A stretch of 20,097 nt of DNA from a virus, in IMG/VR virus record IMGVR_UViG_3300027782_000463, positions 1 through 20,097 of that record; one strand, given 5' to 3'. The notes under the pieces were generated by a model, which did no database searches, was not told the origin of the DNA, and saw nothing but the letters and a program-made list of their open reading frames with translations. Shown here piece after piece: positions 5,753 to 15,064 of this stretch. The position numbers were made by a program, and so were the translations under genes. Position 1 is the first letter of the stretch, and each line of letters opens with the position of its first letter.

Positions 5753-5883
5753 ATTATTGGTTTTTATAATGTGTTATATAGAAAAATAAAAAAAATCAAA
5801 TGTCAAAAATGGTTAAGTCTTTGTTTTATATCAGAATAATGAAGGGCCCAAGGCATACGATTGTTTTTTGACACGAAAAAATA

Positions 5884-5909
5884 GGGTATGGGGTAGGGTA
5901 GGGGAGGGG
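5884..5909 (+). other. G-quadruplex-type tract
   Basis: Five runs of three or four G on the plus strand (5884-5886, 5890-5893, 5896-5898, 5901-5904, 5906-5909) are separated by loops of 3, 2, 2 and 1 nt, the classic pattern for a stable parallel quadruplex. It is striking in an AT-rich phage. The G strand is the template strand for the leftward terS transcript, whose leader would be C-rich here. Confidence 0.75.
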
Positions 5910-5978
5910 CTTAGTCCTATTTAACATAATATAAATTATAAGACCTATCCTCTCTCCTATTCTTAGCCTATCCAATGG

Positions 5979-5986
5979 CAAAAGTA
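5979..5986 (-). promoter_or_regulatory. Minus-strand -7 element TACTTTTG, proximal copy
   Basis: The minus strand reads TACTTTTG, an exact TAnnTTTG match, within the 12-bp repeat TGGCAAAAGTAA (5976-5987). Transcription would run leftward into terS with a leader of about 220 nt. No TTG is seen at the right distance, so it is a candidate only. Confidence 0.45.
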
Positions 5987-6026
5987 ATGTAGTTTTATTA
6001 TATTGATAGTTTACTCACTCTGATGG

Positions 6027-6034
6027 CAAAAGTA
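6027..6034 (-). promoter_or_regulatory. Minus-strand -7 element TACTTTTG, distal copy
   Basis: Second copy of the 12-bp repeat (6024-6035), exactly 48 bp from the first. A TTG on the minus strand at 6062-6060 lies 25 nt upstream, slightly longer than the usual 17-23. It could be a tandem late promoter, or the repeat could be a binding site of an activator. Confidence 0.45.
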
Positions 6035-6185
6035 ACAAACAGGCTTTAATACTTATATTCAATTTACTTTACTATACACTAATATAATAGGTAATATAAA
6101 CTCTATTATATAATATATACAATATAGTTGATAATATAACAATATACAATGTATAAACTATCTAATGTATACTAATTAGCTTACT

Positions 6186-6204
6186 TAGTGTACTAATTAC
6201 ACTA
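6186..6204. promoter_or_regulatory. Operator-like palindrome TAGTGTA-CTAAT-TACACTA
   Basis: A perfect inverted repeat with 7-bp arms and a 5-bp centre. The 9-mer TACTAATTA at its core (6191-6199) recurs at 6170-6178, 21 bp away, i.e. two helical turns, within a degenerate second palindrome. This is the usual look of tandem sites for a dimeric helix-turn-helix regulator. It lies about 105 nt before the first rightward gene. Confidence 0.6.
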
Positions 6205-6309
6205 TCTAAATCAATAAAATAATTAAATTATTTTTTACATTCTTTGATGTTTGTATTAATATCCTTTGTATATTACAGCGTCATTATAAAACAAAATGAC
6301 CCTTTATTT

Positions 6310-6405
6310 ATGCTTTATTTATACTTTATTCAATTGGCTTTATTCTGTTTCTTTATGGCCTTTGTAGGCAAATTATTTATTAACCTTTTAATAGATAAGC
6401 AATAA
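6310..6405 (+). CDS. Micro membrane protein, 31 aa
   Basis: The ATG at 6310 follows CCTTTATTTATG, the same start context as the genes at 6768 and 8144. The product starts MLYLYFIQLALFCFFMAFVG and continues with a short basic tail ending DKQ, giving one hydrophobic segment across most of its length. The stop overlaps the next start as TAATG. This appears to be the first gene of the early operon. The function is unknown; a small membrane effector acting early on the host envelope is possible. It is short, so coding status rests on start context and tight coupling. Confidence 0.5.
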   Translation: MLYLYFIQLALFCFFMAFVGKLFINLLIDKQ

Positions 6406-6506
6406 TGAACACTACAATAACACTACTAGAAACAATCTGTATCTGTGCTGCTAGTATACTAGTATATGCACTATTAAAAACTATTTATCAATCATTAAAA
6501 AAGTAA
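6405..6506 (+). CDS. Micro membrane protein, 33 aa
   Basis: The product begins MNTTITLLETICICAASILV and ends with the basic stretch KTIYQSLKK, giving one transmembrane helix of about 18 residues with a positive C-terminus. Start is coupled to the 31-aa gene by TAATG, and its stop is 2 nt before the 80-aa gene. The tight three-gene arrangement argues for real translation. No homologue is recognised. Confidence 0.5.
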   Translation: MNTTITLLETICICAASILVYALLKTIYQSLKK

Positions 6507-6508
6507 CA

Positions 6509-6767: not shown

Positions 6768-7511
6768 ATGCAAAACACACTACAAGAAACAAAAACTATA
6801 ACAGCTCCAACATATAGAGCCGTTAAGAACTTATTAAGCAAAGGCAATACCAACGCTAAAACAATCAAGAACGCTTTAGAGACTTTTATTTTATATTTAG
6901 CCCCTTATAATTTAAGCGGCTTCAATGTTTGTCCTTTTGCCTCTAGTGGTTGTATTAAAGGCTGTCTAAATACAGCGGGCCACGGAATTTTTAATTCGGT
7001 TCAAGATGCAAGGATTAACAAAACAAAGTTTTGGGGCTTTGATAGGTCGGCCTTTTATTTTCAATTGGCTAATGAGCTGTTAAAGATATTCGACAAAACA
7101 CTAAAAAAGGATATTAAAATAGCAATTCGTTTAAACGGCACCTCTGACATTGACCATTTAGATTTGCTTGAGCGTTACACAGGGATAAACTTTTTAGACC
7201 CTTTTTATAGTTCCCTTTTATTTTATGATTACACAAAAAATTATAATCACATTAAACGATATTTAAATACTAATTATAAATTGACCTTTAGCCGCTCAGA
7301 GGTTAACGATTTAGATGCCTATAGACTTTTAAAGGACGGCGGGAACGTTGCTGTAGTATTTAAAAACGAGCTGCCCCAATTTTGGAACGGGTTTCCTGTT
7401 ATTAATGGAGACGATACCGATTTAAGGTATTTTGACCCTATTAATGTAGTAATTGGCTTAAAGGCAAAAGGCAAAGCAAAAAAAGATATTAGCGGCTTTG
7501 TAGTGGCATAA
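6768..7511 (+). CDS. Gp88-family phage protein, 247 aa
   Basis: I recognise the pattern of the phage gene product 88 family (named from mycobacteriophages). It starts with a helical region, then NVCPFASSGCIKGCLNTAGHG with Cys at 55, 62 and 66, followed by IRLNGTSDIDH (about 122-132), FYDYTKN, LTFSRSE and the closing GDDTDLRYFDP and VIGLKAKGKAKKD. The three clustered Cys suggest a metal or Fe-S site. The reaction is unknown. Start is the ATG in TTTATTTATG at 6768. A tRNA-like fold follows 8 nt after the stop. It belongs to a cassette (6509-7826) with somewhat different codon use. Confidence 0.85.
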   Translation: MQNTLQETKTITAPTYRAVKNLLSKGNTNAKTIKNALETFILYLAPYNLSGFNVCPFASSGCIKGCLNTAGHGIFNSVQDARINKTKFWGFDRSAFYFQLANELLKIFDKTLKKDIKIAIRLNGTSDIDHLDLLERYTGINFLDPFYSSLLFYDYTKNYNHIKRYLNTNYKLTFSRSEVNDLDAYRLLKDGGNVAVVFKNELPQFWNGFPVINGDDTDLRYFDPINVVIGLKAKGKAKKDISGFVVA

Positions 7512-10528: not shown

Positions 10529-10712
10529 AGACTATCGTGCCTTGCTTAAGTATGGCGATATAAAAAAGATTTGTGAGATTACAGGGTACACACCTTATAA
10601 GATTCGCACTAGGTTGGCTAAGGCTGACGAAGAGATGATTGAAATTGTAGAAGCTTTCTATCGCAAAAAGATAGAAGAATTAAAAAACCAAATATATGAC
10701 TTCACCGAATAA
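10518..10712 (+). CDS. Small helix-turn-helix-like protein, 64 aa
   Basis: The segment YGDIKKICEITGYTPYKIRTRL (about residues 12-33) has the spacing of a helix-turn-helix with a turn at TGYTP, followed by a long charged helix that could dimerise. It may be a small transcription regulator or replication accessory factor. It overlaps both neighbours (11 nt upstream, 17 nt downstream) and directly precedes the DnaA-domain gene. No family is assigned. Confidence 0.68.
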   Translation: MLIRDYRALLKYGDIKKICEITGYTPYKIRTRLAKADEEMIEIVEAFYRKKIEELKNQIYDFTE

Positions 10713-11091
10713 AATACACTACTACGCTATGCCAGGAATATTAAACTTTGAAGAACCTGATAGAGAATTACTAATTCAGTTTGTATGTAAGGAGATGAAT
10801 GTAAGGTACAAAGATGCCTTGTCTAAAGATAGATCACGCATTCTAGTGCTTACTAGGAATATGTGCTATGCCATCCTAAAAATTTATGTAGGAGCCACAG
10901 TAGCCTCAATAGGCAGGTTATTTTTTCGTGACCATACAACTGTCCTACACGGATTGCGTATGCACCAACAAGACCTTAAGACTAATGACATCTACCAGGA
11001 GCAATTCGATGAGATTAGATTCTTACTTAAACTTAATTTACCAACCAAAAAACACATAAAGTATGCTAAGTCAATTCGCACTATGGGATGA
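10696..11091 (+). CDS. DnaA domain IV-like DNA-binding protein
   Basis: A 131-aa protein. Residues about 22-95 follow the C-terminal domain of DnaA: ELLIQFVCKEMNVRYKDAL, then RILVLTRNMCYAILKIYVG, SIGRLFF and the signature RDHTTVLHG at 78-86, which reads the DnaA box. The AAA+ ATPase domain is absent. It can therefore bind boxes but not form the nucleotide-driven filament. Three DnaA-box-like sites start 14 nt after its stop, and the helicase genes lie downstream. It may mark the phage origin, recruit or exclude host DnaA, or repress its own operon. Short first 20 residues are unassigned. Confidence 0.85.
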   Translation: MTSPNKIHYYAMPGILNFEEPDRELLIQFVCKEMNVRYKDALSKDRSRILVLTRNMCYAILKIYVGATVASIGRLFFRDHTTVLHGLRMHQQDLKTNDIYQEQFDEIRFLLKLNLPTKKHIKYAKSIRTMG

Positions 11092-12503: not shown

Positions 12504-12805
12504 TATACCAATTAAAAAATACAATAGATGTTCACACTCCACTTGGGTACGGAAAAGCAATCGCCTGGATTGACTACGGATCAGATACAAACACAGTTTG
12601 GAAAGTCGTACTATACGACACAGGTATGGTTAGGAACTTTTACGATGACGACATTCTCGTATATCCCAACGCAATGGATGGAGGAGAAATCGATGAAGAG
12701 TTCTTCGTCAAAAGAGAGTTTAAGTATAATAACAAACAATTTATAAAAGGGCTAAAAAACCATTTTAAACCATATGAGTCAAGAGATAAAGGGGATGGAG
12801 AATAA
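12500..12805 (+). CDS. Hypothetical protein, 101 aa, small beta-barrel-like
   Basis: Start taken at ATG 12500, coupled to the upstream stop; a longer version from 12455 would overlap the membrane gene for most of its extra length. The segment GYGKAIAWIDYGSDTNTVWKVV and DTGMVRNFYDDDILVYPN suggests an SH3 or KOW-like small barrel, often found in nucleic-acid or protein binding modules. A basic C-terminus follows. No exact family. Confidence 0.7.
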   Translation: MIYQLKNTIDVHTPLGYGKAIAWIDYGSDTNTVWKVVLYDTGMVRNFYDDDILVYPNAMDGGEIDEEFFVKREFKYNNKQFIKGLKNHFKPYESRDKGDGE

Positions 12806-12998
12806 CATACCAGTTAGAATGGTGTTTATAGACAACAAGGAAGAGATTCATTTTAAATCTATAGCAGCAGCTAGTAGGAAGTCTAAAGTGACAGCACAAA
12901 GCATCAGAGAGTCATTAAATCCTATTGCTAGGAAGAAGTTTATGGTTAAGCACTTAGATAAAGAGAGAGTAGTGGCTTTTAGAATACTATCTAAATAA
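12774..12998 (+). CDS. Small DNA-binding-like protein, NUMOD1-like, 74 aa
   Basis: The segment EEIHFKSIAAASRKSKVTAQ followed by SIRESLN (about 20-46) resembles the NUMOD1/helix-turn-helix repeat F-x-S-I-x-x-A found next to homing endonucleases, here with no nuclease. It may be a minimal DNA-binding repeat or a remnant. Start at 12774 overlaps the previous gene by 32 nt; an in-frame ATG at 12795 (11-nt overlap) is equally plausible. Confidence 0.6.
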   Translation: MSQEIKGMENNIPVRMVFIDNKEEIHFKSIAAASRKSKVTAQSIRESLNPIARKKFMVKHLDKERVVAFRILSK

Positions 12999-13001
12999 TC
13001 T

Positions 13002-13009
13002 TATATTTG
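13002..13009 (+). promoter_or_regulatory. -7 element TATATTTG
   Basis: Exact match to TAnnTTTG, directly before the hairpin element, predicting a transcript start near 13014. The -33 region has CTTTTA at about 12976-12981 rather than TTG. It would give the replication genes (13107 onward) their own promoter. Confidence 0.5.
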
Positions 13010-13100
13010 CTCTGTAATATGCGACATTACAAAAAAAGAGTTTATAGGGTGGAAGATGAACAGGTAGTCGCATTACCTGTAAGTCTGAAGCCCTTTTTTT
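13010..13100 (+). ncRNA. Structured leader with two hairpins and complementary 7-nt loops
   Basis: Hairpin 1: GTAAT/ATTAC (13014-13018/13026-13030) with loop ATGCGAC; CTCT/AGAG (13010-13013/13037-13040) may extend it across an A bulge. Hairpin 2: ACAGGTA/TACCTGT (13060-13066/13074-13080) with loop GTCGCAT, extended by AGA/TCT and AGGG/CCCT with symmetric 3x3 and 4x4 internal loops. It ends in TTTTTTT (13094-13100). The loops are exact reverse complements, so a kissing complex or dimer can form. The terminal T run suggests a terminator. The same DNA also encodes a possible 32-aa ORF. Confidence 0.5.
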
Positions 13101-13117
13101 ATTATTATGAATCATAA
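13019..13117 (+). CDS. Possible small protein, 32 aa, overlapping the hairpin element
   Basis: Frame open from ATG at 13019: MRHYKKRVYRVEDEQVVALP then VSLKPFFYYYES. It fills the only gap of its size in this operon and overlaps the next gene by 11 nt, like other genes here. The composition is protein-like (basic start, hydrophobic end), though GTC, GTG, CTG and CCC codons are unusual for this phage. The T run of the proposed terminator would encode Phe and Tyr. The start codon lies in the loop of hairpin 1, where it can pair with hairpin 2. Coding and RNA readings compete, or both hold. Confidence 0.4.
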   Translation: MRHYKKRVYRVEDEQVVALPVSLKPFFYYYES

Positions 13118-13724
13118 TTGGTACGCAGTTCTACCTGCACAGGTTTTATTAAGCAAGGAGCTTACTGATAAACAAAAGTTATTAATAGCTTTAATATCTA
13201 ATCTAAGCAATGAAAGAGGTTATTGTTTTGCATCTAACAAGTATTTAGGAGATTGTCTTGATTGTTCAGAGTCTACGATTAAAGACCACCTTAAAAAGTT
13301 AGAGGATATGAAGATACTAGGAAGGATTATTAAGTTAAAAGATAATGGCGATTTTGACTATAGATCATTGGTAATTAACATTGATATACCTAGGCCTGAA
13401 AAAACTACTACCTCAGCCGAAAAATCGGCTTACCCCTCAGCCAGAAAACTGGCACATAATAATATAGTTATTAATAACAAAGATATAATACCTAATAAGA
13501 TATATAACGATAAGGATTCTTTTATCAATAGACTAGAAGTTTTTAAGGATAAACTTGGGAATCAATATCAATCTTTTTTAGACTATTGGACTGAAGCAGA
13601 TGCTAAAGGTAAGATGAGATACCAAGACCAAAAATTCTTTGACATAGCTAGAAGAGTAGGAACCTGGCTTAAGAATAGTAAAAACTTTGAACCTAACACA
13701 CCAACTAAAATAAAGCTTAAATAA
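13107..13724 (+). CDS. Winged-helix replication protein, 205 aa
   Basis: The N-terminal domain (about 1-95) is a winged helix: LTDKQKLLIALISNLSNERG, then the recognition part YLGDCLDCSESTIKDHLKKL and a wing. It is followed by a polar linker and a C-terminal helical domain (SFLDYWTEADAKGKMRYQDQ, then FFDIARRVGTWLKNS), a layout known from phage replisome organisers that load DnaB. The gene overlaps dnaB by one base (TAATG), which supports the partnership. Target site unknown; local repeats upstream are candidates. Confidence 0.8.
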   Translation: MNHNWYAVLPAQVLLSKELTDKQKLLIALISNLSNERGYCFASNKYLGDCLDCSESTIKDHLKKLEDMKILGRIIKLKDNGDFDYRSLVINIDIPRPEKTTTSAEKSAYPSARKLAHNNIVINNKDIIPNKIYNDKDSFINRLEVFKDKLGNQYQSFLDYWTEADAKGKMRYQDQKFFDIARRVGTWLKNSKNFEPNTPTKIKLK

Positions 13725-15064
13725 TGGATGTAATAAACCTACCAAAAAACCTAGAGCTTGAAGAGAATATTCTAGGCTCAATTTTACTAGATAAAAGAGC
13801 TTTGCCTTTAGTAGTTAACTATTTAAACGAAGAAATATTTTACGATTTAAGACACCAACTGATATTTAGAACCATCAAGCAGATGTATGATAAGAATATA
13901 CAAATAGACTTAAGTACTGTTTTTCAACGACTTATAGACAACAAACATTCAGAAGAAGTAGGAGCCTTATACCTATCAAAGATTACGAATAGTGTCGTAT
14001 CTACTGCTCACCTAAACACTCATATAGAGGTAGTAATAGAATTATACAAGCGTAGAAAGTTAGCAACCCTGGGCAGATTAATGGAGGTATCGGCCTTTGA
14101 TGGTGCTGAATCTACTGATGATACCCTAGCTACGTTTGGTAAACAACTTTTAGGACTACAAGAGTTTGGTAATATATACGAAAAGACTATAGACCAAATC
14201 ATTATGCAGCTAAATGAAGGTCGTGATGCTGCTGTAAGTGGTCAGTTATTAGGCATAAACACAGGCTTTATGGAGCTTAATAACACTCTTTGCGGTTGGG
14301 TAGATCCTGACTTTGTTATCATAGCTGCTAGACCTGGAATGGGTAAGACTGCCTTTATGCTTTCTAGTATCTACCACATAGCAATCCAAGGAGGCATCGC
14401 TACGGCCATTTTTAGCCTCGAAATGAGCTCCAATCAGTTAGTTGAAAGGTTAGAGTCAATCAGCTCTGAACTGCCCTTAAAACGTCTTAGAATGAATTTA
14501 CTGACCGATAACGAAAAAGTTCACTTAATGCGAACTGACGACAAGATACTTACTTCCCCCATCTACATAGAGGATATGGGCGGTATTAGTGTAACCCAGC
14601 TACGAGCCAAAGCAACTATTCTTAAACAGAAGTATGGCATAAAGATTATCTTTATCGATTACCTTCAACTTATGAGTGGTACTGGCAAGTCAAACCAAAA
14701 CCGAGAGCAAGAGGTATCCTACATTAGCAGGAGCCTAAAAGCACTTGCCAAAGAGTTGGAAGTACCTATTATCGCCCTATCCCAATTATCACGAAGAGTA
14801 GAAGAACGAGGAGATAAGATGCCTCAGTTATCTGACCTTAGAGAATCAGGATCTATTGAACAAGATGCAGATGCTGTGATTATGCTAATGCGACCAGGCT
14901 ACTACGAACAAACTGAATCAGTAGAGATTGGTGGTAAAGAATATTCTCCTAATGATTTAGTAGTTTGTAAGGTGGAGAAGAATAGACACGGAGCTACTAA
15001 AAACCTAGCATTAAGATTTTTACCTGAAACAATGACCTTCCAAGATTATGTCCAAGGGCTATAG
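13724..15064 (+). CDS. dnaB: Replicative DNA helicase, DnaB family
   Basis: A 446-aa protein that unwinds phage DNA at the fork. The N-terminal helical domain begins LELEENILGSILLD. The RecA-like motor follows after a linker: Walker A ARPGMGKT (202-209), Walker B IIFIDYLQL (308-316), motif SQLSRRVEER (353-362) and DLRESGSIEQDAD (371-383) including the arginine region. Length and motifs are complete for the family. It is coupled to the winged-helix protein upstream and overlaps the 121-aa gene downstream by 17 nt. Confidence 0.96.
   Translation: MDVINLPKNLELEENILGSILLDKRALPLVVNYLNEEIFYDLRHQLIFRTIKQMYDKNIQIDLSTVFQRLIDNKHSEEVGALYLSKITNSVVSTAHLNTHIEVVIELYKRRKLATLGRLMEVSAFDGAESTDDTLATFGKQLLGLQEFGNIYEKTIDQIIMQLNEGRDAAVSGQLLGINTGFMELNNTLCGWVDPDFVIIAARPGMGKTAFMLSSIYHIAIQGGIATAIFSLEMSSNQLVERLESISSELPLKRLRMNLLTDNEKVHLMRTDDKILTSPIYIEDMGGISVTQLRAKATILKQKYGIKIIFIDYLQLMSGTGKSNQNREQEVSYISRSLKALAKELEVPIIALSQLSRRVEERGDKMPQLSDLRESGSIEQDADAVIMLMRPGYYEQTESVEIGGKEYSPNDLVVCKVEKNRHGATKNLALRFLPETMTFQDYVQGL

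Follow-up and report, generated by a model that had tools for sequence, protein, structure and literature searches.

We found that a small predicted structured RNA with two hairpins, whose 7-nt loops are exact reverse complements of each other, precedes the replication genes of the virus analyzed here, and that RNAs of the same arrangement precede replication genes of unrelated kinds in other viral contigs. It is apparently a widespread structured RNA of Bacteroidota phages (viruses of Flavobacterium-like bacteria) that is absent from Rfam. The RNA is very likely real and its structure is well supported; its anatomy makes a role in controlling termination and replication plausible.

The window, i.e., the whole stretch of DNA analyzed, is a virus record of 20,097 bases with its early genes on the plus strand. 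The original prediction had placed TATATTTG at the head of the element; it is indeed present, and our analysis adds that it fits the −7 promoter box of Bacteroidota (TAnnTTTG), which is kept in most relatives. In the available part of a study on Flavobacterium psychrophilum, the sigma-A box TAnnTTTG occupies positions −12 to −5 (PMC9723704), so the predicted RNA start is 13014, the first base of hairpin 1. The features are as follows.

12774..12998, plus strand: 74-aa open reading frame (ORF) whose stop codon ends 3 nt short of the −7 box; without match in PHROG or Pfam
13002..13009, plus strand: putative Bacteroidota sigma-A −7 box TATATTTG (TAnnTTTG), from the sequence and the published consensus
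13014..13030, plus strand: hairpin 1, GTAAT-ATGCGAC-ATTAC, 5-bp stem, 17 nt, from the sequence and predicted fold
13019-13025, plus strand: loop 1, ATGCGAC, from the sequence
13031..13045, plus strand: A/U-rich linker of 15 nt, from the predicted fold
13046..13094, plus strand: hairpin 2, the predicted terminator arm, from the sequence, fold and conserved arm length
13046-50/13090-94, plus strand: basal pairing of hairpin 2, AGGGT/GCCCT
13054-57/13083-86, plus strand: lower pairings of hairpin 2, AGAT/GTCT
13060-13080, plus strand: apical stem-loop of hairpin 2, ACAGGTA-GTCGCAT-TACCTGT, from the sequence
13067-13073, plus strand: loop 2, GTCGCAT, reverse complement of loop 1, from the sequence
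13094..13100, plus strand: T-run of seven T of the predicted intrinsic terminator, from the sequence
13107..13724, plus strand: replication initiator-like gene, HTH_36; PHROG replication initiation, from family matches
13724..15064, plus strand: DnaB-like replicative helicase gene, from family matches

Judged from sequence only, a terminator-like hairpin sits between a promoter-like box and the rep gene, and the gap from the T-run to the ATG (13107) of the initiator gene is 6 nt. The 74-aa ORF at 12774–12998 presumably resembles a small NUMOD1-type DNA-binding protein; ORFs of 70–75 aa (ending ...FRIxK), without family match, adjoin the RNA in many loci. Elsewhere, the window encodes a Bac_DnaA_C protein (DnaA C-terminal DNA-binding domain; 10696–11091) and a GP88 (gene product 88) family protein (6768–7511), and 756 nt between divergent gene blocks (5753–6508), where no 60-aa ORF is listed, are a possible control region. 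DnaA-like proteins are also annotated in phages tooticki and phi13:2.

The RNA from 13014 to 13101 folded with a predicted energy of −25.1 kcal/mol (z = −4.0), and none of 200 shuffles was as good. As originally noted, the 7-nt loops are perfect reverse complements, with complementarity confined to the loops; the match is also beyond chance, since the arrangement recurs in relatives with different, still complementary loops, and the detector described below passed none of 1100 shuffled upstream regions. The internal loops of hairpin 2, which had been given as 3x3 and 4x4, come out as 2x2 and 3x3 when the fold is predicted. In the thermodynamic fold, two pairs form within loop 2 and leave a 3-nt loop, so a kissing partner would have to displace them. 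No mutually exclusive antiterminator hairpin, as in a classical attenuator, appeared in the minimum free energy and centroid folds of five RNAs, which agreed with each other.

We investigated the distribution of the RNA upstream of replication genes chosen by protein, with a detector that required at least 6 nt of loop complementarity within 330 nt upstream. Set A came from a 205-aa initiator query (61 viral contig loci, of which 57 plus the window were counted), set B from a 203-aa initiator-like protein (best 80 of 251 loci), and set C from a 756-aa DUF3987/Prim-Pol protein (best 80 of 326 loci); loci that were partial or had short upstream DNA were left out (4, 1, and 6 in sets A, B, and C, respectively). 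The RNA was detected in 52 of the 58 loci of set A (22 distinct RNAs), 53 of 79 in set B (28 distinct; from the best 80 of 251), and 41 of 74 in set C (30 distinct; from the best 80 of 326). Over all the upstream DNA available, these same selections gave 62 of 78 loci in set B (a list outside which L190 and L240 stand) and 48 of 74 in set C, and the 16 and 26 loci without a match over that DNA include some that look positive by eye. Misses of the detector that look positive by eye include L226, L228, L229, L294, L318, L331, and L343; among the accepted RNAs, some have weak complementarity (6 nt), and for L259 a stem was reported in place of the loop. By eye, the set A upstream DNA of L027 and L059 has no RNA at this place, and in L041 it lies about 650 nt upstream, ahead of another gene. 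Among control windows, 20 of 4692 passed; in 18 of these, the locus coordinates were shifted and the window held the RNA that was expected anyway, and the remaining two are L324 and L341. A stricter detector applied to all loci collected returned 124 distinct RNAs, in which 64 loop strings occur; a few are due to chance. Three loci (L071:4458-4576, L093:2764-2885, and L111:1095-1213) show a 9-nt pairing variant, in which a bulge within the terminator arm, and not its loop, holds the 3′ partner in the predicted fold.

Viral contigs were also searched without reference to genes for a pattern of box, GCCC...GGGC, and T-run, which matched at least 120 stretches; six hits with the string GCTTTT, a repeated coding-like DNA, were dropped before counting. 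Complementarity of at least 6 nt between predicted hairpin loops was found in 58 of 99 distinct matches among those listed, compared with 9 of 990 shuffles. Without folding, 65 of 105 distinct matches among those listed (a set that included genome_contigs loci) shared at least 7 nt, against 9.2 expected from shuffles. The kissing filter passed 78 of the hits listed, corresponding to 61 distinct RNA strings, some on contigs that are also in the protein-defined sets. Among the matches listed, 71 loci were classifiable, and in 67 of these a replication gene (initiator-cluster, DnaB, or Prim-Pol) was one of the three ORFs next downstream, in 44 cases the nearest of them; in 43 of the 71, an ORF begins 1–7 nt past the matched Ts. 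The downstream genes are of unrelated kinds, HTH_36 initiators with DnaB and DUF3987/Prim-Pol. The initiator cluster was formed by single linkage, and the one representative tested lacks a Pfam match, so the label of many members rests on linkage; L164, one of the four loci outside the 67, starts with an HTH_36 gene. For bacterial or prophage copies, one strict pattern covering only GCCC/GGGC terminators gave seven hits in genome_contigs, none of which was accepted: in six, the two regions have no more than 5 nt in common, and in the seventh, L188, where they have 7 nt in common, nothing passes the hairpin detector. Two A/T-rich hits at other places in L184 were judged to be chance matches.

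The loop pairs in set A were ATGCGAC/GTCGCAT, GTCGGAT/ATCCGAC, GTACGAG/CTCGTAC, GGACGAG/CTCGTCC, and GTTGCAG/CTGCAAC, to which inspection by eye added GTCGCAG/CTGCGAC (L058) and a 6-nt pair in L057. Pairs were counted in alignment A1, which comprises 30 distinct RNAs of set B and was made without use of structure; the MAFFT alignment of set A (A2) misaligned loop 2 and was left out of the counts. Over the whole structure, 97.4% of A1 was paired, compared with 80.5% in shuffles (0 of 500 as high) and 36–54% when the structure was slid, and double changes occurred in 25 of 37 pairs, counts that are inflated by the relatedness of the sequences. Under the same inflation, the kissing helix was 96.1% paired (shuffles, 82.4%; slid, 39–70%), with double changes in six of its seven pairs (38 cells) and a covariation score of 0.510 versus 0.240 in shuffles; its further pair types were not above shuffles (451 of 500 at least as high). 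The original prediction had proposed a kissing-loop RNA before the replication genes and named co-varying loops as a check. The loops do co-vary, both in the pair counts against shuffles and in the alleles of isolated phages, and the proposal is supported by this covariation and by the protein-defined loci. As in a kissing-loop RNA, complementary hairpin loops thus appear to be conserved by compensatory change.

Because kinship inflates covariation scores, the clearest case is that of isolated phages. Three alleles with matched loop changes occur in isolated Baltic Flavobacterium phages whose DNA is 85–93% alike: tooticki and lillamy carry loop GTGAGACG with CGTCTCAC, mumin and snusmum GTGGAACG with CGTTCCAC, and morran GTGAGAAG with CTTCTCAC. 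One version is present in 46 Flavobacterium phage records (Blast, 85–100% identity, RefSeq duplicates included), and other versions occur in Elemovirus elemoA and in phage 11b, the latter picked up by a second detector after the first, which also overlooks RNAs with a 4-bp terminator base, had missed it. The RNA was present in three of five named genomes scanned, two of which were scanned whole; no copy was found in the approximately 50 kb scanned of the 72–73 kb of phi13:2 and of Calle_1. In tooticki, the upstream gene is closed by a terminator-like hairpin with eight T, followed by the box and the kissing RNA, and by eye no TAnnTTTG lies between the kissing RNA and the 70-aa gene or the replication genes. 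The same phage has a second kissing-loop RNA, GTCGTCG/CGACGAC (L356:11590-11685, MN812240), before an endonuclease gene annotated PF07463, of which L324:4873 is a look-alike with the matched change GTGGTCG/CGACCAC. Among named phages, the window region has no DNA relatives, and its protein relatives are all below 60% identity.

The RNA and its flanks (300 nt on the upstream and 600 nt on the downstream side) were compared separately in 25 hand-chosen sequences, pairs with less than 250 nt upstream being dropped. L012 and L014 were 96% identical upstream and 98% downstream and 60% identical in the RNA; the respective values for L005 and L011 were 89%, 94%, and 62%, and unlike flanks score about 50–54% by the same alignment. 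In L007 and L028, the RNA is 93% alike between flanks of 58% (upstream) and 61% (downstream). By these identities, the RNA is evidently exchanged as a cassette between near-identical phages, and a predicted promoter and a stem-loop are found at the borders of exchanged modules.

The 5′ arm from the terminator base to loop 2 measures 19–21 nt in 20 of 22 distinct RNAs of set A and 27 of 28 of set B, and 13–24 nt in set C. In sets A and B, the length is constant although sequence and internal loops differ, which fits the need of a fixed three-dimensional fold. Estimates based on A-form values indicate that stacked stems and a kissing helix need about 85–92 Å with little bending and 70 Å at a right angle, and that linkers of 13–17 nt reach about 84–117 Å, making intramolecular kissing in class 1 possible but taut. 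In class 2, by the same estimates, a complete 11-bp hairpin 1 leaves an 8-nt linker that reaches 54–58 Å versus the 78–107 Å needed, so that a full hairpin 1, a full terminator, and intramolecular kissing should not coexist. Intramolecular kissing in class 2 would thus demand opening of the lower hairpin 1 stem, which hints at, but does not prove, a two-state device. Pairing within one molecule is our default model.

On balance, we consider it probable that the RNA serves as a gate to the replication operon, in the form of a kissing-loop leader that terminates itself, and that the terminated form is a by-product small RNA. A phage leader RNA of about 87 nt would begin at the TATATTTG promoter, form the 5′ leader of the replication operon, and fold into hairpin 1 and the terminator hairpin, the loops being joined by a 7-bp kissing helix. 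Most transcripts would stop there, leaving a compact small RNA, and some, from the same promoter or one upstream, would pass and allow expression of the initiator and helicase. The 6 nt between the T-run and the start codon leave no room there for another promoter, and TAnnTTTG between RNA and gene is absent in all 123 RNAs that have an ORF no more than 120 nt away (an internal one occurs in 2 of 80 distinct RNA strings); the replication mRNA therefore most likely reads through the terminator, barring a promoter inside the RNA or gene or one of another type. Kissing would shift this balance by favouring or opposing closure at the base of the terminator, which it could affect because the linker has hardly any length to spare. 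In F. johnsoniae, structure in the region of −20 to +20 tends to accompany weaker translation, according to the available part of the report (PMC6847099), and a closed hairpin near the start codon could thus also hinder translation. Promoter activity, termination, partial read-through, and an effect of kissing on their balance are what we infer from this anatomy. Several observations count against a gating leader: the second tooticki copy precedes an endonuclease gene, not a replication gene; a fold without tertiary contacts partly closes loop 2; the class 2 geometry is unfavourable; further pair types of the kissing helix are not above shuffles; loci of sets B and C without a match exist, as do the scanned parts of phi13:2 and Calle_1 without a copy; and kinship inflates the pair counts.

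A free-standing small RNA that targets RNAs or proteins of the host or the phage in trans, and only happens to lie before the replication operon, would account for the predicted promoter and terminator of its own, the compact covarying fold, the one version shared by the 46 Flavobacterium phage records, and the second copy in tooticki. We regard it as unlikely because it leaves unexplained both the position of 67 of 71 copies before replication genes of unrelated kinds and the 1–7 nt spacing to the ORF in 43 of them, among the matches listed. Cassette exchange suggests another reading, in which a promoter-terminator cassette marks a PeSL-like boundary of recombination modules and the kissing helix merely stabilises the terminator. 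L012 and L014 differ mainly in the RNA, L007 and L028 share it between unlike flanks, and in some loci a NUMOD4/HNH gene, or a gene with a sub-threshold GIY-YIG match, directly follows the RNA; such a boundary, however, needs neither matched loops nor a fixed arm length, since promoter and terminator suffice, and we give it little probability.

That the loops pair between molecules, as in phi29 prohead RNA and bicoid mRNA, to form dimers or rings is very improbable: one molecule does have two mutually complementary loops, and class 2 geometry disfavours intramolecular pairing with an intact hairpin 1, but the conserved arm length and the adequate linkers elsewhere fit intramolecular pairing, and the neighbours are replication genes, not packaging genes. 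The original prediction had also offered a 32-aa gene whose start codon, in loop 1, is masked. The frame from 13019 is open in the window, L002, and L003 and spans 28 aa in L004, but in 10 of 15 entries with the same hairpin 1 (among which the window appears both under its own name and as L001) the A-run is one base shorter, so that the frame shifts and the product is only 20 aa long. No ATG is present within the loops of the other types, although one spans the boundary of stem and loop in the GTACGAG type. We rejected the gene, whose probability is practically negligible, on account of the frameshifts in close relatives.

Under the gating-leader reading, the loops might further act as replication-immunity types, terminated leaders building up, kissing the nascent leader of a like-typed incoming phage and lowering read-through into its replication genes. 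This extension is distinctly unlikely; if true, a phage would sense its own copy number and exclude like-typed competitors, and both the large number of loop types and cassette exchange among near-identical phages would be accounted for. Self-recognition would be written twice in one 87-nt RNA, so a new type would need only matched loop changes or a cassette swap. Since isolated phages with known hosts carry the RNA, early replication control, kissing in termination, and cassette exchange are directly testable.

Rfam 15 gave no gathering match in the window and none at E ≤ 5 for window positions 12950–13150, and the sole match in seven further RNA-bearing loci was a tRNA elsewhere in L094. The Rfam c4 model (P4 CI / C4 antisense RNA), RF01695 in the available part of its source (PMC2864571), matched neither the window nor these seven loci. 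Literature searches among openly licensed PMC papers showed no paper on such an RNA among the matches listed, and the word "kissing" is absent from the available main text of two structured-RNA surveys. A loop-loop helix is beyond ordinary covariance models, which may be why the RNA was missed.

P1 C4 RNA, like P4 CI, has complementary segments in a leader. For satellite phage P4, the available part of the report describes CI RNA with seqA/seqC, complementary leader segments before replication genes, and an early stop of transcription (PMC4825925). The window RNA is like P4 CI in having complementary segments in one leader transcript ahead of replication genes; unlike in P4, where a processed antisense RNA meets separate target sites, both partners here are loops of hairpins in a single RNA, one of which is a predicted intrinsic-terminator hairpin. 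Loop-loop pairing and replication control through a leader are found in the plasmid systems pT181, pIP501, and ColE1 RNAI/RNAII, the ColE1 loops being 7 nt long; in plasmid rep attenuators and antisense RNAs, the partner comes from the opposite strand, whereas here both loops are in the same transcript. The operon of Gifsy-1 IsrK encodes an antiterminator. In the available text on IsrK, a phage leader yields a small RNA at a terminator and an mRNA by read-through, as proposed here; unlike in the window RNA, no kissing loops were seen in that text for this enterobacterial prophage. The phi29 prohead RNA, part of the packaging motor, has two complementary loops that make an intermolecular contact; the window RNA likewise has two complementary loops in one phage RNA, and its neighbours are replication genes. 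We know of no kissing loops in PeSL and of no tie of PeSL to replication operons. PeSL of T4-type phages are, in the available part of their description, composite promoter-terminator units linked to gene shuffling (PMC4503421), and the RNA described here is like them in being a putative promoter-terminator unit at the borders of exchanged modules.
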